Below, piece after piece: positions 1,551-16,828 of a stretch of DNA of 17,417 nt (positions are counted from its first letter, which is position 1; each line of letters begins with the position of its first letter). The notes below the pieces were generated by a model, which saw only the letters and a list, made by a program, of their open reading frames with translations, was not told the origin of the DNA and ran no database searches. Both the position numbers and the translations under genes were made by a program. Source of the stretch: Spongospora subterranea (lineage: Eukaryota; Endomyxa; Phytomyxea; Plasmodiophorida; Plasmodiophoridae); the NCBI GenBank assembly GCA_900404475.1, contig OUQQ01000443.1, positions 1-17,417 of the forward strand, in the 5' to 3' direction.

Positions 1551-1585
1551 CACATGTGAGTCATGTGAATGAGTCAACTGACTCA
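1551..1585 (+). promoter_or_regulatory. E-box and TGA(G/C)TCA site cluster upstream of tyrosinase
   Basis: Within 35 nt there are a palindromic CACATGTG (1551-1558), a second CATGTG E-box (1562-1567), and three TGA(G/C)TCA sites (1557-1563, 1570-1576, 1579-1585). CATGTG is bound by bHLH-ZIP factors and TGA(G/C)TCA by AP-1-type bZIP factors. The stretch AGTCATGTG (1559-1567) equals the first nine bases of the vertebrate M-box AGTCATGTGCT. The cluster ends about 55 nt before a TATA-like box. The site matches are visible; their function is inferred. Confidence 0.5.
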
Positions 1586-1640
1586 ACGGGAAACTGTTCG
1601 TCGTTGCCGCCACGAGAAGAAACTCGCCAATCTCAGTTTG

Positions 1641-1648
1641 TATTTATA
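1641..1648 (+). promoter_or_regulatory. TATA-like box for the tyrosinase gene
   Basis: TATTTATA lies 44 nt before the ATG chosen at 1692. Transcription would start about 25-30 nt after the box, leaving a 5' leader of only some 20 nt. This fits the ATG at 1692 better than the in-frame ATG at 1569, which is upstream of the box. Confidence 0.4.
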
Positions 1649-1691
1649 TCAAATCTTTATAGAGCATTATACGACCAAGATCCAATCCAGA

Positions 1692-3518
1692 ATGCGTCCG
1701 CTGGTCCTATTATCAATATCGACGATCGTCGCGATCGTATTCGCGGTGACGAACGCCCAGCTCGTCCAAACCTGGGACTGCCGCAGCATGAACGGCGTCA
1801 AAACCACAGAGAGCGTCGTGGCCCGATCGGGTCTGATCTCGGACGGCCCTGGCGGTGTCCGCTCCAATACCTGGTGCGAATGGATCATTCAACCGCCGCC
1901 ATTGGCCAACGGCAAACCGCGTCGCGTCAAGTTCACATTCCGCTCGTTCAACATGATGTCGGGCGAGGATTTCGTCTGGGTCTTCGACGACGCCGTCAGT
2001 CGGAGCGTTCCCGTCCAACGCCTGACCGGCACCTACATGCCGGAGCCGTTCTACTCGTCGAGCGACGCCGGTTTGCGCGTCGAGTACCGATCCAGCGAGT
2101 TCGGGGTCGGGAACGCGGTCGCCGAAGAACAGGGGTTCGAAGCGCTGTTCGAGATCGTGGAGGTGAAGGGCGTCTGCAACCCGAACCCGTGCAGCGACGA
2201 GAGCGTCTGCATCGAGGACGAGCGCGGCGGCCATCGGTGCACGCGCTGCCCGATCGGCTACACGGGCGACAGCTCGCTGAAGGGCGGCTGCGTCAAGGTC
2301 GTCCCGTGCCCGACGCCCATCGTTCGCAAGAACCTGCTGCACCTGACCAAGGACGAGAAGGACCTGTACTTCTTCGCCCTGCAGAGCCTGCGCCGATCGG
2401 GCCTGTACGACGAGATCATGTGGATCCACGCCGACAAGGTCAACTTCAACTTCGCCCATTTCACGGACGGGTTCCTGCCCTGGCACCGCCAATACCTGCT
2501 CATGTTCGAGCGGGCGCTGCAGTCGGTGTCGCCCCAGTGCAACTGCCTGGGCATCCCGTTCTTCGACTGGACGATGGACGCGGCCGACCCGGAGCGATCG
2601 TACATCTTCACGGACGAGTATTTCGGGGGGAACGGGGTCGACCTGGGCGATGGGAAGAAGTGTGTTCGCAGCGGGCAGTTCCAGTGGACGGTGTTGGGCA
2701 ATAGCTGTCTGCAACGGGATCTGAACGGTGCCGGGTTCTTCGCCACGCGCGAAGAGGTCCTGAATGCGATCGCCAGCAACGAGCGGTTCCGCGACTTCTC
2801 TAGGGCGATCGAGCTGTTCCACGACACGGTCCATCGGTTCTTCTCGGGGACGATGGTGCTGGACAACTCGGCGGACGAGCCCGTGTTCCTGAGCCACCAT
2901 TCGTTCATCGATATGCTGTGGTCGGTCTGGCAAGATTGTCACGACTACGACCAGATCCCGGCGGCCAGTGTTCGATCGAACAGCAACGCGTTCACGGGCG
3001 GGATCGAAATCGGATCGCTAAGCACTCAGGTCAACACCGACTACAACGCGCCGATGCCGTTCAGGTTGGCGCACGTGGACGTTCCCGTCGTCCCCATGGA
3101 ACTACACGATATCCGCTCGCTCAGCTACTCGTACGACAATATGCACTTCCTGTCCGATCCGGCGACGGTCGAGTGGTTCGACCCGCGATGGACGACCTGC
3201 ACGATCGAGTCCATGGAGCTGTTCAAGAGCAATCCCGAGGAGTTCACGAAGGCGGTGGGCGCGTCGTCATCGGCCCAGACGGGATTCCAGGCGCTGCAGG
3301 TGTTCGTGACGGCGCCGGCACTGTATTCGGGCCCGACCATGAACCCGGAACAGATCTGCCAAGGAACGTATTTAAACTTCACCGGGAAGTGCAACTGCTT
3401 CATGCGATGGAGCAACTACGAGCTGCGCTACGTCGCCAAGCTAATGCCATCGTGCCAGCGCCAGGAGATCCTCGCCTGTCTGCACGAACGCAGTGGCACC
3501 AAGCGAATGGTGTTTTGA
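1692..3518 (+). CDS. Secreted CUB-EGF-tyrosinase (type 3 copper oxidase)
   Basis: A 608-residue intronless protein. The start at 1692 gives a classical signal peptide (residues 1-23, MRPLVLLSISTIVAIVFAVT...); the in-frame ATG at 1569 would bury it. A CUB-like domain follows at about 30-157 (C30, C62-EWII). An EGF-like module spans 162-200 with six cysteines. The tyrosinase domain runs from about 210. CuA ligands are H246, H256 and H265 (FLPWHR). CuB ligands are H377 and H381 (HDTVH) plus the HH at 402-403 (SHHSFID). All six copper ligands are therefore present and an active enzyme is expected. The family oxidises phenols to o-quinones for pigment or crosslinking. There is no C-terminal membrane segment, so the product is probably secreted. 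The physiological substrate is unknown. Confidence 0.93.
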   Translation: MRPLVLLSISTIVAIVFAVTNAQLVQTWDCRSMNGVKTTESVVARSGLISDGPGGVRSNTWCEWIIQPPPLANGKPRRVKFTFRSFNMMSGEDFVWVFDDAVSRSVPVQRLTGTYMPEPFYSSSDAGLRVEYRSSEFGVGNAVAEEQGFEALFEIVEVKGVCNPNPCSDESVCIEDERGGHRCTRCPIGYTGDSSLKGGCVKVVPCPTPIVRKNLLHLTKDEKDLYFFALQSLRRSGLYDEIMWIHADKVNFNFAHFTDGFLPWHRQYLLMFERALQSVSPQCNCLGIPFFDWTMDAADPERSYIFTDEYFGGNGVDLGDGKKCVRSGQFQWTVLGNSCLQRDLNGAGFFATREEVLNAIASNERFRDFSRAIELFHDTVHRFFSGTMVLDNSADEPVFLSHHSFIDMLWSVWQDCHDYDQIPAASVRSNSNAFTGGIEIGSLSTQVNTDYNAPMPFRLAHVDVPVVPMELHDIRSLSYSYDNMHFLSDPATVEWFDPRWTTCTIESMELFKSNPEEFTKAVGASSSAQTGFQALQVFVTAPALYSGPTMNPEQICQGTYLNFTGKCNCFMRWSNYELRYVAKLMPSCQRQEILACLHERSGTKRMVF

Positions 3519-4526: not shown

Positions 4527-4961
4527 ATGGGTATCGATGTCGCCAAATACGCTCCCCGTAAATGGTATTCGCTGCCCAATTTTGGATTTGACCTGTTTCC
4601 GCCATGACGATGGAGTTTTATTTACACTGTCGTTCTAGTGTTGGCCATTGGAATTTCCTATTCACCAGCTTGGTCCAGACCGGATTTTTCATCGTCGTTC
4701 GCGTTTTTTACGATCATTGAGTGTTTATTGGATTTTCGTATTATTGACGGTATGTTCTCTAGTTCCGCCACAATGCGAATGATCACCGCCAAAGATCACG
4801 CGTCGGTCCAGATCAACGTCGGTGAGGTCGACGAGAGCGGTGTCTACACTGGTCAATACCAGACCTTCGCCTTCTCAGGCTACATCCGGTCCAAGGCCGA
4901 ATCCGACGCCTGGCTCAACAAGCTCGCCGCTGAAAAGGGCCTCGTCGCCGATATCTTCTAA
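4527..4961 (+). CDS. RPS21: 40S ribosomal protein S21 (eS21), two exons
   Basis: The product is 78 residues. Exon 1 (4527-4564) encodes MGIDVAKYAPRK plus TG. A 198-nt intron (4565-4762, GTATTC...TCTCTAG) splits the Cys codon of the PRKCSAT motif. Exon 2 (4763-4961) continues with SATMRMITAKDHASVQINV, then the VYTGQYQTFAFSGYIRSKAE segment. PRKCSAT, AKDHASVQINV and the ESD...L..L...GL end are hallmarks of S21, a eukaryote-specific small-subunit protein. The N-terminus is shorter and more divergent than usual: VAKYAPRKC where most species have V-D/E-L-Y-V/I-PRKC. A CATAAA at 4970-4975 may be the poly(A) signal. Confidence 0.95.
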
Positions 4962-5285
4962 TTTCCTCTCATAAAACTACAATTCAGAACCCTAAATCTG
5001 TCGTCGTTTTCCCTCTCCAACACCTTTTCCCTCATTCCAATGTTTAATCATTTATTCGCTCCGACACCGATCCCGTTCCAGAATCGCGGTTAATCACCAC
5101 CAGAACACTTATAGATCGACGAACCAGTCAGAAACCATTGGTTCTCCTTTGTGGTTGAGACCGTTTGGTTGAAGGCACACGTCCCTTCAGGGGCACACGC
5201 CCTTTGAGTGATGGGGGGCGTCATGACAGGGAGAAATAGGGGTGAATCCGATGGCCAAGCACGACCTTAAACTGCAGTTGCCATC
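4962..5285. other. Intergenic region between RPS21 and the acidic protein
   Basis: This holds the RPS21 3' end and the 5' flank of the next gene. No additional gene is seen. The one visible structure is an imperfect 15-nt direct repeat, AGGCACACGTCCCTT (5173-5187) and GGGCACACGCCCTTT (5191-5205), matching at 12 of 15 positions, about 85-110 nt before the next ATG. Confidence 0.45.
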
Positions 5286-6557
5286 ATGACTTGTACAGTG
5301 GAGCGATTGCCCTTCAGACCCAATCGCCCGGTCGACGCCGCCAACGGATCCGGGGTCGACGACAGCCGGGTCGAGCGCGGCGCTTCCCAGGCGGCGGCGA
5401 TGGCGGCCACGTGCACCATGGCGGTACAGACCGATCAGGCCGAGCTGGGCGAGGTGCCCAGCCACGACGACGACGACGATCTCGACCAAGGCCGGGGAAT
5501 CCAGGTTGACACGTCGACCCGCCCCGACCCGTTATCATTATCGAATATCGCTCAACAACCCGTCTACGACTATCGCCATCCGCCGCAATCGCCATGGTCG
5601 TCGCACTGGTCCAACACGACCCAGGACCTGCTGATCTGTCGCCGATCCGCTGATTCCGATGGGTCGAGTCCCGTTCAGGGCGCTGGCCGAACCCTGATGG
5701 ACCCGTCGAGCTCATATCATAGCCGACTGGACCTGATCCCGGCCGGTCGATATGGCGCTAGTCACGACCACAGCCAGAGCAGCGGCCTGGACGAGGAGGA
5801 GGAGGATGACGAGGAGCTGGCCGACGATATCTATCACGACCTGAACGGGATCGATATCGACGCGAATAGCGTGGCGAGCAACGACGACGATGGGAACGGG
5901 TATCACGATTGTGCCGATAACGACGACGACGACGACGACGACGGGAATCTATCGTGCGCGTCGAGCCACGATCAATCCTCCTCGCTGTTGGAGGACGACG
6001 AGTGCCCGGCGCTGGAGGAAGGTGAACCGGATGTGAATCGCGTCGTCTCCCGATCGTCGGCCGTGATTCCCTACAGCTCGTCGACGGTCTCGATCTCCCC
6101 GTACACGTCGTCCCCTTTCCCGCCGATCGCCTCCTCCACCTTGTCGTCTGACCTGGCCACCAGTTCCGGCGCCTTCTTCGACTGGTCTTCCGGCGCGTTA
6201 TCGGCGCTGAATGGCAATCTGTCCACGAGGACCTACGGTCAGCTATCGTCCCCTCAATCGTCGTCGCCATCGCGATTCACCATGAACGAGTCGATCTGCG
6301 ATATAATCAGTCCAATATCTCGTTATCGATCGATCACGACGCCGTCGATCCAATCGCAGATCTCGGCGGCGATCGGGACCATGTCCCCCGTGTTCCCCCA
6401 TATTCAGCAGGGCGAGGCCGACCCGGTTCGCGCCCTCCCCAGTGCCAGCGTCGAGGGCATGAGGCGAACGTTCTCGGCCTTGGTCGACAACATGCAGTCG
6501 TTCCGCTATGGGGATGGGCAACGCAATCGCCCGATCGATGTTGGCGAAGGACGTTAA
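5286..6557 (+). CDS. Acidic, Ser-rich disordered protein with two LC8-like motifs
   Basis: A 423-residue intronless frame that I cannot assign to a family. Almost all of it is low in hydrophobic residues. There are runs of Asp and Glu at about 61-65, 175-183 and 213-220, and Ser/Pro-rich stretches after about 250, so it is probably intrinsically disordered. No signal peptide or membrane segment is seen. Two segments match the binding motif of dynein light chain LC8 (DYNLL): AVQTD at 46-50 and GIQVD at 71-75. The latter is the core also found in neuronal nitric oxide synthase. A role as a dynein or LC8 hub partner is therefore possible, by inference. The coding nature is supported by length, poly(A) signal and composition. 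It converges on the coiled-coil gene. Confidence 0.7.
   Translation: MTCTVERLPFRPNRPVDAANGSGVDDSRVERGASQAAAMAATCTMAVQTDQAELGEVPSHDDDDDLDQGRGIQVDTSTRPDPLSLSNIAQQPVYDYRHPPQSPWSSHWSNTTQDLLICRRSADSDGSSPVQGAGRTLMDPSSSYHSRLDLIPAGRYGASHDHSQSSGLDEEEEDDEELADDIYHDLNGIDIDANSVASNDDDGNGYHDCADNDDDDDDDGNLSCASSHDQSSSLLEDDECPALEEGEPDVNRVVSRSSAVIPYSSSTVSISPYTSSPFPPIASSTLSSDLATSSGAFFDWSSGALSALNGNLSTRTYGQLSSPQSSSPSRFTMNESICDIISPISRYRSITTPSIQSQISAAIGTMSPVFPHIQQGEADPVRALPSASVEGMRRTFSALVDNMQSFRYGDGQRNRPIDVGEGR
5921..5942 (+). repeat. GAC trinucleotide microsatellite inside the CDS
   Basis: Seven consecutive GAC units, read in the CDS frame as Asp codons, encode most of an eight-residue Asp run in the acidic protein. 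Such tracts often vary in length between alleles. Confidence 0.8.
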
Positions 6558-6639
6558 CGCCGTTTAACGACAACAAATTCACTAGGGAATGATCATCACC
6601 AGCTCCGATTCTCATCAATTGATCCATTACAGTTCTTCA

Positions 6640-6645
6640 AATAAA
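6640..6645 (+). terminator. Poly(A) signal of the acidic-protein gene
   Basis: AATAAA lies 83 nt past the stop codon at 6557. A genomic run of A residues starts 25 nt further on. Confidence 0.6.
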
Positions 6646-6669
6646 CGATTCTTTGTTCATTGTTTGTTC

Positions 6670-6686
6670 AAAAAAAAAAAAAAAAA
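6670..6686 (+). repeat. Poly(A) tract of 17 A residues
   Basis: The uninterrupted A run lies at the distance after AATAAA where cleavage and tailing normally occur. On the opposite strand it is a T run in the 3' flank of the coiled-coil gene. It may be a plain homopolymer or the trace of a reverse-transcribed transcript (see findings). Confidence 0.85.
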
Positions 6687-6741
6687 TCAGGGTGCTCTTC
6701 GACCCGGGCGATATTGCCGATTTCACAGAACCACACACACT

Positions 6742-9700
6742 TTATCTATTGGTTCCGGGCTGTAATCGGTCGAGCTGTTGACGAACCGATGCCAGATCCA
6801 TTGTTAGCGCCACGATCGCGTCGTTGGCCGACCGCAGTCCGTCCTCGATCACCTTCCTGGCCGCGCTCTGCATTCGCAGCTTGTTGTCGACCGACAGCTC
6901 GAGCGCGTCGCGGGCCGCCGCGATCGCCCCGTTCACCTTCGAGTCGAGGTCGACCTCCTTCAGCGACCGCACCGATTTCTCGACGGCCGCGATCGCCGAC
7001 GTCGCCGACAAGATATTCAATTGACATTCCTCGACGAAGCTCTGTAAAGCCCCTTCCTGATCCGTTCGCGCGTTCTTCAGGTCGGTCGTCAGCCGGATCA
7101 GATCGGCTTTGGCCAGGTCGATCTGCGTCGCCATCGCGGCCCCGCTCTTCTCGATCGTATCGACGCGATCGCCCACTTCCGTCGACGATCGGTCCAATCG
7201 CGATATTCGTCGATCGTGAGCCGATTGACCTTCATTGACCGATTCCCGAATCGCCATCAAATGGCGATCAATCTCATTCCGATGTTCTTGTTCATCGTCT
7301 CTGATGCGCTTCGCCGATTCGATGGAAAATTCGCGTTCACCGTTGATTTTAGTATCGAAATTGGAACTCAACGCCGCGTTGGAACTTGTCAATTCCTTCA
7401 GCTGATCCTGATCCACCGCGATCGCGTCGTCGTGTTTCTCCAACCGACTTTGAATCGATATCACGTCGTCCTTCAGCCGATCCACGTCGCGATCGCGTTG
7501 GAGTCGGGACGATCGCCACTGATCGATTTCGGGCAGAAGATCGCCCAACTTCTCCAGAAGTTGAACCCGATCCTGGTTCATCAGATTCCCGATATCCGTT
7601 TGGGTCTTGGCCAGTTCCCGACGCCCTTCGTCCCTGAATTGGTCCACGACCGCCGTTAATTCCCCTTTTACATCATCGAATCGCGATTCGACAAATTGTC
7701 GCGTCGACGATATATCCAACGCCATCGCCTTCACCGTATTCTCCAGGATCTTTACGCCATCTGAGATTTCTTCTCCGGATTTCGCCACCGAAATCTCCGC
7801 CTGGTTGGCGATTTCGGAAATGTTCGCGTTGAGCACACGATCGGCCGCTTCGCGATTGGCGATCTCGTTCGATATTTCCAGCGCCAACTGAGTGATTCTG
7901 CTGTTGAGAGCGTGATCAGCGTCCAGATCAGCGTTGGCTTTGGTGTTGATGGCGTCGACCTTGGATTGAACCAGATCCAGCCGAGCGTCGTGTCCGGCCC
8001 GCGATTTGTCGAACGTTGTGCTGAGATCGTTGAATTGGTCGATGAGATTGCGAACACCCTCATTCCGTTCGCTGATTTCGGCCGATAATTGCCCCTGAAA
8101 GGTGTTCACGATCTCCTCATGACGATGGGCAAGTTCCATCGCCTTCTGGGCGTTCTCACCAATATCCTCCTTGAGCCTTTGATCGCCCATCTTCCGACAG
8201 GAAACCTCGTTCGCCAATTGTTCCGCTAGTTGATCGATCCGGTCGTTGAACATTTCCCGATGGTCTTTCCCCATCTGATCGAACTCCTCCACCTTGCTCT
8301 GAACCGCGTCCAATCGCGATTCCGATGTCGCCGACGATTGTCTGCAGATGGTGTTCAGATCCTGTATCTGCCGCGTTAGAACCAGTTCCATGGATTGCCG
8401 ATCACCAGAGCACCGCTCCATCATTCCATTCAACCTCTCCTGCACATCCTCATTCCAGTGCGACAGCTGATCAGCCCATCGTCGTTTGAGCTCGTCGATT
8501 TCACCTGCCATCTTCGCCCGTTCCATCGTCGTCTGATCTTCCATCGACTTCAGACGCTGATCGTGTCGTTCCCGATCGGCTGCCAGCTTCCCGATCGACT
8601 CTAGGGCCGCGATCTGCTGTTCCCGTTGACCTGACAATTGTTGTTGAACCCCATCGATGCTTTCCCTCAAACGACGAGCGTCGTCAGATAAGACGCCCTT
8701 CAGTTCCGCCGACTCCATCGCCATCGTCTGGTATTGCCCATCTCGCGTTTGTCGCTCCAGATTTAGGTCCTCCTTTATTGTCTGTATCCGCTCCCCCAAT
8801 AACTCCACGTGATTATCGACCGATTTCCCAATGGAACTGAATTGCGTTTCCGCCAGTGCCCTCATTTCCCCTAAACTGGCCGAGATCGTCTGGTGTTCGC
8901 TGATCCGGATCGATTTTTCCTCCAAAATCGAATCCGTTATCGACGACACTTTTGCCTCCAACTCATTAGCGCTCGTTGACAGTTCCTGATCAAATTTCGC
9001 CAACAAACTCGCCATCGTGGACTCCGTCTGTTCCGATAATCGCTGAACATCGGCGAGTTTTGCTGTGAACGAATCCGTTGTCGTCGCGAAATTCGATTTG
9101 GTTTCGAGTGTGAACTGGCCAATGCTCGTGATGGTGTTGGAGAGATTGGTCGTTAACGATGATATCTCTTGCGACAATCCCGTCGAGACCGAGGACCATC
9201 GACCGATATCGGCCTGTAGTTGGCCCTCGCGTTGCGCCATGTCGCTGGTGAGTCTGTCGAGCACGGCCGACCTGTCGCTGGTCTCGGTGGCGATCCTCTG
9301 CGACATCCCAGCCATGTTGGCGGCGATCAGATTCCTGAGCTCGCTCACCACGACCTGATTGCCCTGTTCGGTCAGTTCCCTGGCCAGTTTATCGCCGGCC
9401 GACCGCTGTTCGCTCTCTCCCTGCAATAGATCGTGAAGGTGTTGTAGATCCCCGGCCATCCCTTCATGGTTGCCCTTCACCGTATGCAATTGCCCTTCGA
9501 ATCGCTCATTCGCCTGAGCTATCGCCTCAGCCATCGTAATCTCACATCGCCCAACCCGCTCGCCGATATCACGATCGATCCTCGATTCCGCCTGTTCAAT
9601 TGCCAACGCGCGCGCACCTGATTCCGTTTGAATCCTGTCGGCTAGATCATCAAGCTCTATCCGATTGCGCCTCATTCGATCCTCATGCTGTTCAACATGA

Positions 9701-11211
9701 TCCGACCGAGCACGTCGCTCATCCTCCAGATCGTTTCGCAAATCTTTCTGCGATTGTTGAAGGTTTTCCATCCCGTGATCCAGATTCGTCTTCACCTCCT
9801 CGATGGACCCGTTCACCACCCGAAACATCTCCTGCCGATCGCGGCGTTCGTTGTCGAACCTGATCGACCCTTCGGTCAGCTCCCGTCTGATCTCACAATC
9901 CCTTTGGCTCTGCCTTTCCGTCTGGTCGCTGATCGTTCCCAGCAACTGGTTGAACCTCCCTTCGACCAGCGACTCCATCCCCGTTTGCACCGACCCGATG
10001 TCTCTCCTTACATCTGATATCGTATTTCGACACTCGTCCATGGCGCTACCGGCAGAATCACTGTCGCGTTGCCTGTCTTCGATCTCCCGTTTCAAGCAAT
10101 CTTTCTGCACAGACATCTGTCGCTGAATTTCACCATCGAAACTTCTCATCGTACTTTCGAAAACAATCTGCAAAGAATCCATCCTGGCGGATAATTTGGC
10201 CCCAACTTCTATCAATTTCGTGTTGAAATCCGCTTGATTTTGTCGATTATCATGATCAACTCGTCGCTCCAGAGCAACGACGTCCTCGTTGACCTGGGCG
10301 ACGGACGATTTACGAGTCCTAATCTCGGCCCGTAAAACGGCGTCCAACCTTCCGATGCCCTTGCTCGACGTCTCCTGCACCGCTTCCAAGCGATGCGTCA
10401 GAGCGCCATATTCGGCGTCAAACTGTGCCCGAATCAGCTCCTGATTCTTCAGGCTCTTGCTCCAGTCCGATTTGGATTGCGCCCGTTCGTCAATCGACAG
10501 TTTCATCATATCCTGTAGCATCTCGGTCATGTCGTGTCTGACCCGTTTCAGCTCGTCGTCGACGAGCTTCTCCAGGTATTGACATTCCAGATGGCCTCTG
10601 GCCGATATCTCGTGACTGGATCTGTCCATTTTGTGGTCCAAATCCTCGACTTTTCGATTGAGTTCAACGAATTCTGCGTTGTTCGGGCGGTTGGGCCGAT
10701 TCAGTTCCTGATTCAATGGCAGAAATCCTTGATCTCGGGCCCTATAATGCCTTAACAAATCGCAGTCGTTTTTAACCACTTCCAATTCTTTGGTCAGTTT
10801 TTCAACATTGACATCAGGTTTTGAAATCGTGCTGAATACGTGGGAGTTCTGTGAAAGTTTCTGCTTGATGGAAGATAGGTCAAGGCGAGTTGAAAACATT
10901 TCCTCTTTAAGCCGTGATAGTTCAATCATGGCACTTGAAAATTCGCTTTTTTTCGATAATTCCTCAGGATGTCGTATGTGGTGCATGAAAGGAAAAGGTT
11001 GACCCAGTTTGCTGATAGTATTACCGGTATTAGTTTCACTGACCTTTTCCTCATGGTAATCTAGCTGAGCTACAATGGAGTTAACGCGCATTTCAAGCTC
11101 CCTTCGCTGAAGCATTTCATGGTGAAGAGCAATCTTGACTTTCCCCAAGATGTTGGCTAGATCAATCAGGGAAACAGTTCGCTGCTGCGGCGATCGATAG
11201 ACATGGTCCAT
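6742..11211 (-). CDS. Large coiled-coil protein (1489 aa)
   Basis: A single open frame of 4.47 kb without introns. Nearly the whole sequence is rich in Glu, Gln, Arg, Asp and Leu with heptad-like spacing and almost no Pro after about residue 175, which is typical of a long rod-like coiled coil. No globular domain, signal peptide or membrane segment is evident. Related segments recur: RLDAVQSKV (966-974) with the following ~55 residues resembles RLDLVQSKV (1077-1085) with its following residues, and RLEAVQE occurs at 274-280. The first ~175 residues look less regular and may be a separate head. A structural or scaffold role, such as cytoskeleton, basal body or centrosome, fits the class, but I do not recognise the gene. 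The ATG at 11211 is the first in frame; a TTTAG before it leaves room for an upstream exon. Confidence 0.88.
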   Translation of the reverse strand: MDHVYRSPQQRTVSLIDLANILGKVKIALHHEMLQRRELEMRVNSIVAQLDYHEEKVSETNTGNTISKLGQPFPFMHHIRHPEELSKKSEFSSAMIELSRLKEEMFSTRLDLSSIKQKLSQNSHVFSTISKPDVNVEKLTKELEVVKNDCDLLRHYRARDQGFLPLNQELNRPNRPNNAEFVELNRKVEDLDHKMDRSSHEISARGHLECQYLEKLVDDELKRVRHDMTEMLQDMMKLSIDERAQSKSDWSKSLKNQELIRAQFDAEYGALTHRLEAVQETSSKGIGRLDAVLRAEIRTRKSSVAQVNEDVVALERRVDHDNRQNQADFNTKLIEVGAKLSARMDSLQIVFESTMRSFDGEIQRQMSVQKDCLKREIEDRQRDSDSAGSAMDECRNTISDVRRDIGSVQTGMESLVEGRFNQLLGTISDQTERQSQRDCEIRRELTEGSIRFDNERRDRQEMFRVVNGSIEEVKTNLDHGMENLQQSQKDLRNDLEDERRARSDHVEQHEDRMRRNRIELDDLADRIQTESGARALAIEQAESRIDRDIGERVGRCEITMAEAIAQANERFEGQLHTVKGNHEGMAGDLQHLHDLLQGESEQRSAGDKLARELTEQGNQVVVSELRNLIAANMAGMSQRIATETSDRSAVLDRLTSDMAQREGQLQADIGRWSSVSTGLSQEISSLTTNLSNTITSIGQFTLETKSNFATTTDSFTAKLADVQRLSEQTESTMASLLAKFDQELSTSANELEAKVSSITDSILEEKSIRISEHQTISASLGEMRALAETQFSSIGKSVDNHVELLGERIQTIKEDLNLERQTRDGQYQTMAMESAELKGVLSDDARRLRESIDGVQQQLSGQREQQIAALESIGKLAADRERHDQRLKSMEDQTTMERAKMAGEIDELKRRWADQLSHWNEDVQERLNGMMERCSGDRQSMELVLTRQIQDLNTICRQSSATSESRLDAVQSKVEEFDQMGKDHREMFNDRIDQLAEQLANEVSCRKMGDQRLKEDIGENAQKAMELAHRHEEIVNTFQGQLSAEISERNEGVRNLIDQFNDLSTTFDKSRAGHDARLDLVQSKVDAINTKANADLDADHALNSRITQLALEISNEIANREAADRVLNANISEIANQAEISVAKSGEEISDGVKILENTVKAMALDISSTRQFVESRFDDVKGELTAVVDQFRDEGRRELAKTQTDIGNLMNQDRVQLLEKLGDLLPEIDQWRSSRLQRDRDVDRLKDDVISIQSRLEKHDDAIAVDQDQLKELTSSNAALSSNFDTKINGEREFSIESAKRIRDDEQEHRNEIDRHLMAIRESVNEGQSAHDRRISRLDRSSTEVGDRVDTIEKSGAAMATQIDLAKADLIRLTTDLKNARTDQEGALQSFVEECQLNILSATSAIAAVEKSVRSLKEVDLDSKVNGAIAAARDALELSVDNKLRMQSAARKVIEDGLRSANDAIVALTMDLASVRQQLDRLQPGTNR

Positions 11212-11455
11212 CCTAAATTTGAAGGCAAAAAAAATTCGGCTTGTTCGATTGCCTCAGAGGATCCTCATGCTCGTTCTGGACGGCGGCTGCATTAAGGCAC
11301 GCGACTAGAGAAGATTCGATCTAAATAAATATGATAAATATTTATTCTGCAGAACTGCTGTGTAGAGTTTCTTTAAGATCCACCTTGTCCAACTTTGCAA
11401 GAAGCATCCTGTGGCATTCTGTTAATCACAGCTTATTTGAAATAACAGCAGGGAT
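11212..11455. other. Intergenic spacer between two minus-strand genes
   Basis: It contains the 3' flank of the small gene, with AATAAA on the minus strand at 11346-11341 about 110 nt after that gene's stop, and the promoter region of the coiled-coil gene. No further gene is seen. Confidence 0.45.
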
Positions 11456-12976: not shown

Positions 12977-15900
12977 TTATCTCCTCAACCTTCTTCCTGT
13001 AGGATCGGAGAAGGATCCCATACTTTTCAACACAACGTCGTCAAGGTTCTCGGTGTTTGGATCGGACCCACGGCGGCTATCCTCTTCCAGCTGATAATCT
13101 GGGATATTCTGTGCTCCTTTGGAGCCGAGCTGAGACAAGTCCTCTAGATCGCCTGAATTTACATCAACTGCTTCGTCTTCCTGCACCTGAGGCAGCGCTA
13201 ATCCTAGATTGCCTTTTGAGATCCTTTCTCGGAGGTCGTCTTTAGTCCCTTCACTTATGCTTCTGTGGTGTGCTGAGGGGGCATTCGGAACACCGACCGA
13301 ACTGATCGATACGTCGTCTTCACTGATGTCATCAATGGTACTCTCAGGAGCAGGAAGGTTGACCATATCTTTATTGGTTATCCCGTCAGCTGTTTTGAAG
13401 AACATCTCCACCCTAAAACTGGAATCAAACTTCGCGTTTTTCTCTGTTCATAAGGTTTCGGGTCAGTTAGGCGAAGAAGAATAAAAGAGCTTACCAACCT
13501 GCTTTATCAAGGCCAGCTTTTTCAATCATAATATGGTTATTGTCAACTAAATCGATATTTACCCACCAGGAAAACATAAGTTTCTGTAAAACCATCAGCA
13601 AAGTCAAACAGCAGCGTCAATTTCCATCAGTACCTTTCTTGAAGTTATTTTATTGAAAACCATCAACTTCACGTCTCCGTACAATATTATTTCTATTGGT
13701 ATATCGATGATGTTTTTTCCTGGGCGTGTTAGCGGAGCTTTACTGATAAGCGAATCGAAAATAGGTTTCCCATCTCGGTAAACTTTGCAAAATGGATCTA
13801 AAGACACGAATACATCAGACGATGTAACGGTAATTTCAAAGCAACCGCACCGCATCCTCCTAAAGGGCTTAGATCTGGTTCAGGCGATAACCTAATCAAG
13901 GTCAACGATTGAAAGACGTTATCGAACGTGAAGGGGCGATGGAAAGAATTTGTCATCTGCGACAGTTTTTCGAATGAACGTCTAATATTTTACAGATTTC
14001 AGCAACCCAATGCAACTGGTGACCAAGCACAAGTAACTTACACAGCTCTTATTTGGCTCGGAATGGTGACCCCCTTACCGTCTGCTGTGCGTTGCTCGGC
14101 AAAGAAATCTAAAGCTTCAGATGACGTCGCCTTTTCTCCCGAATACAACAGATACGCTGCCGCCATAACCCCGGTTCGGCCCTTCCCTGCTTTACAATGT
14201 ACGGCGACGACGTTTTGTGAATCCACACTGAGATAAGCCTCCACCTCGCGACAGAATGCCAACATCATCTTTAATGGTGGAGGATTATGGTCATCAAAAG
14301 GGAACGCTGCTACATTATTGTTGAAGCAACTTGGATCGTACGAGCGTTCCGAGCAAAGATTTATAACCATGCAATGATCTTCGTGATAAGTTTTGATGAA
14401 CCGTTGAACCTCCTCCATTGGGTTTCTGTAGACCCCTTCCAAATTCGACGAGGGAAACCCCATTACAATCAACTGATTTTCATCTGTCATTATATGGTAC
14501 AAAAGAACATTTTCAAAAACCTACTCGTGACGTCAAATACGTCAAATCGAGATCGAACCCATCTACTTGAAATCGTAGCTTATTCTTACTAACCAGACTT
14601 CGAATCTTGCCTGACAATTTGACTGAAACATTTTCAAGAATGGTCCCTCTTCTACTTGATTTCGACCCGATGGACAGGATGGATACTCGACGAGCACCTT
14701 TCGTTGATGCAGAAGTAGTTGATCGTTGAAGTACCCTTCTAGGTGTTCCAACCGTCTCGACAAATTCCTTGCCAAAAGTGTCTTTGACTTTGATTGCTAG
14801 TTCCACTAACGCTACCAAGACGTTGTCCTTACTGCTGAGCCGAATCTGATGCTTCTGAAGTCCTCGAATCGTTAAGTCGATAAACACGGTCGAGACGGCC
14901 AAAGCATTAACTCCAGAGCAGAGCTCAACGATTAGGGCACCGTTGTACGCGGCTGACAGTGAATCGTGCTGGAATTCGAACTTGGCATCCCAGGCTGGCG
15001 ACGTGCTTTGACTCTGATCAGGCAATGTTGACCATGATTGAGATCCGAACGTCAGGCGAACTGCGGCTTCGATTGACCCGCTGACAAACAGATTTCCCTC
15101 TTTGACGCAGACTTTAACGCGAACCGGTGGATCACCACAGTTCTTGCCCTTGTGCAATCCTTGCCAATGCACCAACGGCCAGTTCGTTTTCGAGAAGAAC
15201 TCGTGGCCAAGCAGGTCGGTGAGATCCGATCCCAGCCTGTGGTTCGGGTCGTGGGTGAGGCATTTGCAGATCAGGTCGCGCGCCACCTCCGAGCAAAACG
15301 GGGGAAACCTGGGCAGACCCGACAGTATCCTCGACACTAGCTCCTCCTTGGTCTTGGCGCGATACGGCGGAAATCCCACAATCAGCTCGTACAAAAACGA
15401 TCCTGCGCGCCACCAGTCCGACAGGACGGTTTCCCCTTTTCCGGAAATCATCTCCGGCGTCCAGAACTCATCGAGTTCCTCCTCGTTGCTCGACAAACGC
15501 TCTTCCCGCGCCAGTTCTAGCGAACTATTCGCGATCGTCTCGAAATCGATCACGACCAGCTGATCGTATTGATCGAACCCGACGTACTCGGGTTTCATGT
15601 TGCGGAATACCCGCCCATTGATGTGCAGGAACGAGGTGAACATGACAACCTGGGCCAGGTATTTACAGGCGTCGTCTTCGGCGAATCGCTTGCACGAGCG
15701 CAGACGGTCGAGTAGACTCTGATTGGGCGCCATGAACGTGTAGGCGGCCCACGATCGGTCCGGCGTCAGACCATGGAACATCTGCTGGACGAAGAACGGG
15801 TGGTGGAGGCGGCAATCTGACATGTTGCCGATGACCGCGATTCCCTTGTCGTAGGAGGCGTCGCGCTTCATCACGACCTGCAATAGATAGGGGTCGCCCG

Positions 15901-16828
15901 TGTGCTTCAGCCGCACCCGATACAATCCTCCCATGCTCCCGTCCACGATCTTCTCCTCGCGCTCGAAATCGGCATAACCGATGGCGGCCGTTGTCGAATC
16001 CTCGGCGACAACATGTGTCGACGATATCGCGTCCGTCACGAACAGATTCAGCGTCTTATTAATGGAGACGGACCTGTTCATCATCGCTTTTTTCAAAAAC
16101 GTCATCTTCGGTTGAGATTCTGTTGACGACATCAATTGGCGGGAATTGGACGTTGTCGTCACCCCGTCTTTGGCCATGTCTTTGACCAAGTCCACGTTCG
16201 ACCCGATCGAGGAAGTGGGCGCATCATCATCGACAATCGTGTCGCTGGACGATTGCCGGTTATGGCCCGAAGTCCGGCTGGTCTTCGAGATCGTGTCGAA
16301 CGCACCGCTGTGCTGCATTATGCTCGACATATTGATCGGCGTGAAGGCGCGCGATTGTGTGGCGACGGCCGACATTGGCGGGGCCGATAAACTATCGAGC
16401 GCGATCGACGAGAATGCTCCGGCCATATTCGGTTTCCAGAATTTGCTGCCGCCGCCCGATGGCGACGACGACAATTTGGTCGATGGTTCTGTTGGTTTAC
16501 AGGCCAGCCAGCATTTCGTCAGCGTGGCGATCCAGTTCTCAGCCTCTTCCTGAGTGGCCGCCTCCAGATCGAACCGTCGCGTGGCGACCTCGATCCGGAT
16601 TCGCGTGGGCTTCCCCGCAATCGTCTCGATCGATGTGATCTCCGTTAGCGGGATCGCGCCCTGTGTGTGTCGCAGGTCGTCCGTCTTCCCATAGGCCAAC
16701 GCCGCCTCGAACAGATAAAAATACCGTTTCTGCCACGCCCGCAATCCGGCGATGCCTTTAGGGCTTTTCTTCTTCAACACGCCCTTGAGAACGATGCGAT
16801 TATCCCCCTCCCCCGCTATGTCGTTCAT
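12977..16828 (-). CDS. PH - AGC pseudokinase - C2 - PTEN phosphatase fusion, frameshifted
   Basis: Exon 1 (16828-14525, 768 codons): PH at about 14-110 (W32-QKRYFYL core); Ser-rich linker; AGC-type kinase at about 284-550; C2-like domain at about 567-690; basic linker; PTEN N-terminus at 743-768 (DGFDLDLTY). Exon 2 (14472-14042): phosphatase core with FPFDDHNPPP (general acid near D829) and HCKAGKGRTG (C861, R867); C808 matches the PTEN redox cysteine. Exon 3 (13981-13634), exon 4 (13583-13495; FSWWVN) and exon 5 (13412-12977): PTEN C2 domain and acidic tail. The 52-, 60-, 50- and 82-nt introns are GT-AG and in phase. The kinase is dead by sequence: Q317 for Lys, FRN for HRD, Y415 for Asn, DFE for DFG. 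PTEN removes the 3-phosphate of PIP3. The modelled length is ~1200 aa once the frame break at 13845-13854 is discounted. The true start may lie further upstream. Confidence 0.85.
13845..13854 (-). other. 5-bp tandem duplication breaking the PTEN C2 frame
   Basis: On the minus strand the sequence reads TGCGG twice in a row. Before it the PTEN frame gives LTLIRLSPEPDLSPLGGCG; after it, the matching C2 sequence (CFEITVTSSDVFVSLDPF) is in another frame. Removing one 5-nt copy restores one continuous frame and also makes the exon end in the phase required by the next exon. As it stands, translation would stop at a TAG at 13800-13798. This may be an assembly error, an allele or a true mutation. Confidence 0.75.

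Follow-up and report, generated by a model that had tools for sequence, protein, structure and literature searches.

Can Akt-like and PTEN domains be combined in one polypeptide? Akt and PTEN are textbook antagonists of PI3K signaling, and in animals they are separate proteins. A gene on the minus strand of a 17,417-nucleotide stretch of Spongospora subterranea DNA (contig OUQQ01000443.1; hereafter the window) raises this question. The window makes up all of contig C323 in a genome assembly (20.6 Mb, 679 contigs) that we call G000, and the gene extends from 16828 to 12977. All of its features described below are on the minus strand.

We found a PH domain, an AGC-type kinase domain and a PTEN-type phosphatase encoded in this gene, in that order. 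The kinase domain has lost catalytic residues and the PTEN signature is intact. Domain order, residue loss and signature are all conserved in relatives. We believe, with a probability of about 0.62, that these proteins form a family with the layout PH - AGC pseudokinase - C2-like - PTEN, and that its PTEN part is targeted or gated at the membrane by a dead, Akt-shaped arm.

One open exon joins the PH and kinase domains to the start of PTEN

Most of the fusion lies in a single open frame. Exon 1 (14525..16828; 768 codons) encodes the PH domain, the pseudokinase, a C2-like stretch and the PTEN N-terminus. The frame holding it runs from 16918 to 14513, and its ATG at 16828 is no more than four residues from the start of the related protein P0001 (by eye). 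This 801-codon frame is far above chance expectation: the longest frame in 200 mononucleotide shuffles of the region (16918-12977) was 230 codons.

Exon 1 closes with the PTEN N-terminal segment KIRSLVSKNKLRFQVDGFDLDLTYLTSR (14525..14608), and the relatives have an equivalent segment. A 52-nucleotide GT-AG intron in phase 0 (intron 1, 14473..14524; donor GTAGGT at 14524, acceptor ATCAG at 14473) leads into exon 2 (14042..14472). Exon 2 encodes the phosphatase domain, including HCKAGKGRTG at 14199-14170 and GVTIPSQ, and matches PTEN in the PDB (E 1.6e-50). The end of the phosphatase domain and the start of PTEN_C2 are in exon 3 (13634..13981), the middle of PTEN_C2 (by Pfam) is in exon 4 (13499..13583), and its end is in exon 5 (12977..13443), followed by an acidic, Ser-rich tail (by eye) and a stop at 12977. 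Introns 2, 3 and 4 are 60, 50 and 55 nucleotides long. All four introns have GT-AG borders.

The reading frame of exon 3 is broken near 13,850. The original prediction missed this break; its exon 1-exon 2 junction stands. The part upstream of the break extends to about GGC, the part downstream begins at about CFEITV in a different frame, and both align with PTEN_C2 of relatives. We left exon 3 unmended and searched the two sides separately; the Pfam match to PTEN_C2 (E 1.6e-18) comes only from the piece downstream of the break. With this break inside PTEN_C2, the gene as assembled is not cleanly open as far as its stop. We considered a short GT-AG interval within exon 3 as the cause, and do not favor it because its removal would take out residues that align with relatives.

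Our results might also indicate that the gene is a decaying copy or pseudogene, or that misassembly has joined a kinase to a PTEN gene. The break inside PTEN_C2 is what such a history could leave, and the genome has a second PTEN gene with PH matches (on contig C504, described below). We regard decay or misassembly as very improbable. The 801-codon frame (at most 230 in shuffles), the GT-AG borders at 4/4 introns, and the same domain order in P0001 and seven other proteins all argue against it.

The same domain order is present in at least eight relatives

We compared exon 1 with ~5.8 billion proteins; 7995 candidates were scored and four proteins were returned. The best match was P0001 (926 amino acids; E 1.2e-172), which was 41% identical to the exon 1 product along 99% of the latter's length. 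P0001 is a single predicted protein that starts with the PH domain and extends past the PTEN active site as far as VTIPSQIRYV. Because P0001 spans both parts, the evidence for the fusion goes beyond the splicing of intron 1. P0001 ends at the position of the window's second intron, which suggests that its frame was called on unspliced DNA.

Two further searches yielded additional relatives. The PTEN part of P0001 matched 2131 proteins, and three of the best 120 (P0001, P0027 and P0054) had precomputed PH, kinase and PTEN-type domains. A domain-permuted alignment search gave 2200 proteins. Eight of the best 120 combined a kinase domain with a PTEN-type domain. Seven of them also had a PH domain (P0001, P0054, P0124, P0125, P0126, P0127 and P0131; P0027 was not among the matches listed), and the eighth was the unrelated P0135. 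At least eight relatives, these seven and P0027, thus have the order PH, kinase, PTEN. Together with the open exon 1 and the phase-0, 52-nucleotide GT-AG intron, they confirm the predicted single-gene fusion.

In P0124 the order was PH - kinase - C2 (PF00168, E 9.2e-22) - PTEN - PTEN_C2. P0001 and P0127 had no PTEN_C2 match because their sequences end early. The stretch between kinase and PTEN varied from 84 to 503 residues across the eight relatives. For all eight the source is 'jgi' or 'lgn', presumably metagenomic, and the longest contigs for P0001, P0027 and P0127 were 19, 36 and 53 kb. No relative was found among 11 pattern-match stretches in GTDB genomes with P0124 as query, a single-protein scan that reaches close relatives only, or among 95 pattern-match stretches in IMG/VR with query A3.

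P0135 (737 amino acids; eukprot) has a kinase N-terminal to PTEN, with Lys, HRD and DFG intact, which we read as Ste20-type. It is either an unrelated fusion of an apparently active kinase to PTEN or the product of a chimeric transcript.

The kinase domain has lost catalytic residues and the PTEN signature is intact

The AGC-type pseudokinase domain of the window gene comprises residues 288-545 (15194..15967; Pkinase, Pfam E 4.6e-22). It has LLQ at the beta-3 Lys, FRN for HRD, DFE for DFG, and FWTPE at the APE region. With Q, N and E in place of the beta-3 Lys, the HRD Asp and the DFG Gly, it does not qualify as an active AGC kinase.

We aligned ten pseudokinases, those of the nine fusions (the window gene and its eight relatives) and of a paralog without PTEN from the window genome, with five active reference kinases. 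The beta-3 Lys, alphaC Glu, HRD Asp and DFG Gly were lost in 10/10 pseudokinases and present in 5/5 active references. The DFG Asp, the PE of APE, the DxW Asp and the alphaI Arg were retained in 10/10 pseudokinases. In an unrooted tree of these 15 sequences, a branch with 100% support separated the five active kinases from the pseudokinases, as would be expected if the latter are a single family. Judged by its residues, the kinase domain is catalytically dead.

A profile made from the ten pseudokinases was run on 189 proteins. The eight relatives, whose own sequences are in the profile, scored 286-361 bits by construction; for P0002 and P0003, which are active AGC kinases, the scores were 174 and 162. 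The profile also added P0130, which had no Pfam kinase match and contained only the end of the kinase domain (E 8.1e-23 with this profile).

The paralog encodes a PH domain and a pseudokinase (C122:18057-19578; locus L023, 3986-5560) and has a stop shortly past the kinase. No PTEN was found in the ~700 bases downstream.

The original prediction described the layout as Akt-like. This holds for the PH-kinase order, and P0124 matches AKT1 and AKT2 (below). It does not hold for the motifs: the activation-loop and hydrophobic-motif patterns of Akt matched 0/9 fusions in a pattern search. By sequence the window kinase was nearest to PKA; by structure, in a comparison that covered the kinase part only, RSK2, PKA and PDK1 were about equal. 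On its own, the domain has the AGC kinase fold only generically.

The phosphatase looks alive, judging from its active site. HCKAGKGR[TS]G was intact in 9/9 fusions, with Ser for Thr in P0126. The window has the CX5R signature with both Lys, and its phosphatase domain is followed by the interrupted PTEN_C2. The D and H of the DH motif were invariant across the eight relatives and are both present in the window. Residues of the CX5R signature and the DH motif are among those that give human PTEN its preference for PIP3. The predicted pairing of a dead kinase with an intact phosphatase signature was also seen in 8/8 relatives. By signature and domain order the gene product belongs to PTEN; by motif it is neither an active kinase nor Akt.

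The PH domain keeps three of four AKT1 basic positions

The PH domain comprises residues 13-105 (16514..16792; Pfam PF00169, E 1.7e-11) and has the expected strands in the AlphaFold2 model. It had 17 PDB matches (E <= 0.1), among them myosin X, TAPP1, centaurin delta 1, cytohesin 2 and PLEKHA3. PLEKHA3 (FAPP1) is of the PI4P type, and the neighbors also include PIP3 or PI(3,4)P2 binders. Of the basic PH positions K14, R23, R25 and R86 of AKT1, the window PH domain keeps K14, R25 and R86.

The PH domain might instead read another phosphoinositide and send PTEN to an endomembrane, with the pseudokinase as a passive spacer or a trafficking adaptor, as in GAK/auxilin or SCYL. Its basic motif is not the full PIP3 motif, by comparison with AKT1, and PLEKHA3 is among its PDB neighbors. 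SCYL2, a clathrin-associated protein with a kinase-like domain, has been linked to PTEN (PMC13109056). Three of the four basic positions are nevertheless kept, and Pfam gave no J or other trafficking domain in exon 1 or in the eight relatives. We consider the endomembrane explanation improbable.

Between the kinase and PTEN is a stretch of eight predicted strands (residues 569-683; 14780..15124; AlphaFold2 model) whose position matches that of the Pfam C2 domain in P0124. Pfam and PDB searches gave no C2 match to these residues. In hhalign comparisons, the stretch from the window and P0001 gave a probability of 3.7 with the P0124 C2 domain and of 1.0 with P0027, P0125 and P0131. The predicted strands and the position point weakly to a C2 domain, and we use the label 'C2-like' only. 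The earlier claim that one exon encodes all these domains thus holds for the PH domain, the kinase and the PTEN N-terminus, and for a C2-like domain only by predicted strands and position. Profile searches matched PH, Pkinase and PTEN_C2 in the window gene, PTEN was matched by PDB chains, and C2 was left without a match.

Possible function of the fused domains

The AlphaFold2 model of window exon 1 had a PH fold, a kinase fold and the eight-strand domain at 569-683 (mean predicted local distance difference test score [pLDDT] 63.6; predicted template modeling score [pTM] 0.45). The P0124 model had a mean pLDDT of 65.7 and a pTM of 0.39. One part of it resembled PTEN (7jul; TMt 0.86). Another part resembled full-length AKT2 (9c1w) and AKT1 (8uw7) over ~470 columns, with 24-25% identity (Foldseek).

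We propose that the enzyme would reach a phosphoinositide-marked membrane by means of its PH domain, helped by the C2 domains. The dead, Akt-shaped kinase fold would serve there as a docking or gating module. It might engage proteins whose usual partners are Akt-type kinases, or it might keep the phosphatase closed until the membrane is reached. The PTEN domain would then remove the 3-phosphate of PIP3, and PI3K signaling would end where Akt-type kinases would be recruited. Matches to the PI3K Ras-binding and helical domains were found on contigs C570 and C131 of the genome, and to the helical domain only on C569. These candidates make a source of PIP3 plausible.

The PH domain and pseudokinase could also act mainly as an autoinhibitory lid on PTEN, much as the kinase of Akt is clamped by its PH domain. 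The lid would be released by lipid at the PH domain, or by binding to or phosphorylation of the pseudokinase. The order PH - kinase fold - catalytic domain would suit a lid. So would the retention of pseudokinase fold residues despite the loss of catalysis, and the acidic, Ser-rich C-terminal tail, which by eye resembles that of PTEN. On the other hand, the two models yield no readable interdomain contacts (pTM 0.45 and 0.39), and a kinase-PTEN stretch of 84 to 503 residues in the eight relatives also fits a tether. A lid as the main function seems unlikely to us, though less so than the endomembrane explanation.

Several points weigh against targeting or gating of PTEN by an Akt-shaped arm. 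The gene and its product are known here from DNA sequence alone. The break in exon 3 may mean that the product is truncated in PTEN_C2, or it may be an assembly error or an allele. The window PH domain has Q where AKT1 has R23; this pattern (three positions kept, Q for R23) was shared by 8/9 other aligned PH domains of the family, the exception being P0127, with S at the R23 position and H for R86. Pfam found no C2 domain between kinase and PTEN in 7/8 relatives. The P0124 model differed from its AKT matches by a root-mean-square deviation of 16-18 Å, so that the resemblance to Akt is one of domains and does not extend to a demonstrably equal arrangement, and the predicted interdomain arrangement in both models is not trustworthy at pTM values of 0.45 and 0.39. 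Finally, in a quick tree of 72 PTEN domains (the nine fusions and 63 others chosen from a set of 208), the fusions required five label changes, of which at least three were forced by starred branches.

Origin of the fusion

The PTEN-domain trees address whether the fusion arose once. In a FastTree analysis of 208 domains the fusions were scattered. In the 72-row tree the window and P0001 formed a pair (97, starred), with the other fusions elsewhere. The five changes compare with a mean of 8.6 after shuffling of the labels, and 1/500 shuffles was equally clustered. Constraining the nine fusions to one clade was not rejected (approximately unbiased test, p-AU 0.426). The scatter and the three or more forced changes make several fusion events possible. 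Possibly there was one old fusion, possibly several.

Other genes in the genome and the window

PTEN_C2 matches in the genome were found on contigs C19, C404, C504 and C323 (the window). The gene on C504 (locus L024, ~4600-7020) is a multi-exon PTEN gene with an intact HCKAGKGRTG and a PTEN_C2 match, and two PH matches lie upstream (E 6.8e-6 and 9.1e-9). On C19 (locus L068, from ~2271) there is a Myosin head (Pfam E 1.9e-22) with PTEN_C2 at C19:6449-6997. The PTEN-like domain after the Myosin head has Ser for the active-site Cys (LIHSKAGKGRC, by eye), and C19 possibly carries a myosin - pseudo-PTEN gene. The gene on C404 (locus L069) is PTEN-like, with PTEN_C2 matches, and has HCQTGR followed by GRT over an apparent junction (by eye). 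An elongation factor on C349 (locus L055), the best of three eEF1A-fragment matches (47% identity), was read as EFL type. Among PDB chains, RPL9 of the genome was nearest to those of plant ribosomes, and animal chains followed closely.

Two other frames in the window were examined. On the plus strand, one open frame (1569-3518) has a tyrosinase domain (PF00264), a CUB match and an EGF-like match slightly below the cut-off, to our knowledge an unusual combination. On the minus strand, an intronless frame of 1503 codons (6742-11253) is coiled-coil-like by eye and matched no Pfam family above the cut-off.

Comparison with known proteins

The window gene resembles human PTEN (5bug, 1d5r, 7jul) in its HCKAGKGRTG phosphatase domain, PTEN_C2, N-terminal basic segment and acidic, Ser-rich tail (by eye). 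Nothing in human PTEN corresponds to the PH and kinase parts; here ~740 residues precede PTEN. Like Akt/PKB (9c1w, 8uw7, 4ejn), the window protein has a PH domain followed by an AGC kinase fold. Unlike Akt, it has lost catalytic residues and the T-loop and hydrophobic-motif patterns, and a lipid phosphatase comes after. PH domains with an intact PTEN and no pseudokinase are found in other protist proteins (P0052, P0100 and P0112, by precomputed Pfam domains) and in the C504 gene.

In GAK the kinase, of the NAK family, is live and the PTEN-like domain is dead; GAK also has a J domain. It shares with the window gene the presence of kinase and PTEN-like domains in one polypeptide, with the live and dead roles reversed. 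Auxilin (3n0a) was among the PDB matches of the window PTEN part. Pfam found no J domain in the pieces of the window gene that were scanned, and the PTEN signature is intact, unlike that of GAK/auxilin.

The original prediction named GAK as the nearest parallel. We find the kinatases of trypanosomatids nearer in concept: they join pseudokinases to an active dual-specificity phosphatase (DSP) in one chain (PMC2175518). The same source mentions kinase plus phosphatase architectures in Giardia, Tetrahymena and Dictyostelium. Kinatases have two pseudokinases nearest to CaMKKs, leucine-rich repeats and a protein-type DSP, and the portion available names no PH or PTEN_C2 domain in them. The window gene has one kinase domain, no leucine-rich repeat by Pfam, and a lipid-type PTEN. 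Oomycete STKc-PPM proteins also combine a kinase and a phosphatase, some of the phosphatases with a PH domain, and they are described as having the capacity for both activities (PMC10925823); there the phosphatase is a PPM-type protein phosphatase. In a survey of ciliates, the PTEN paralogs described are distinct proteins from the kinases with PH domains (PMC3823935). No description of a PH-pseudokinase-PTEN protein was found among the matches listed in searches of open-license PMC papers, which leave out most subscription journals.

Implications for PTEN and the PI3K pathway

The architecture is real and conserved, and from its sequence it looks like an overlooked way of wiring PTEN. More tentatively, and with less confidence than we give to targeting or gating as such, the proteins may represent an ancient eukaryotic pseudo-Akt - PTEN family, in which a disarmed kinase of the PI3K pathway is joined to the pathway's terminator. 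An arm suited to finding PIP3 and the partners of Akt would then deliver the enzyme that removes this lipid. Such a protein would provide negative feedback in one chain, competing with Akt-type kinases for lipid and partners. If the family is as we propose, it would show that a pseudokinase in cis can steer PTEN, and these proteins would be a natural construct for studying PTEN targeting and gating. The kinatase idea, a pseudokinase and a phosphatase in one chain, would then extend from protein phosphatases to lipid phosphatases.

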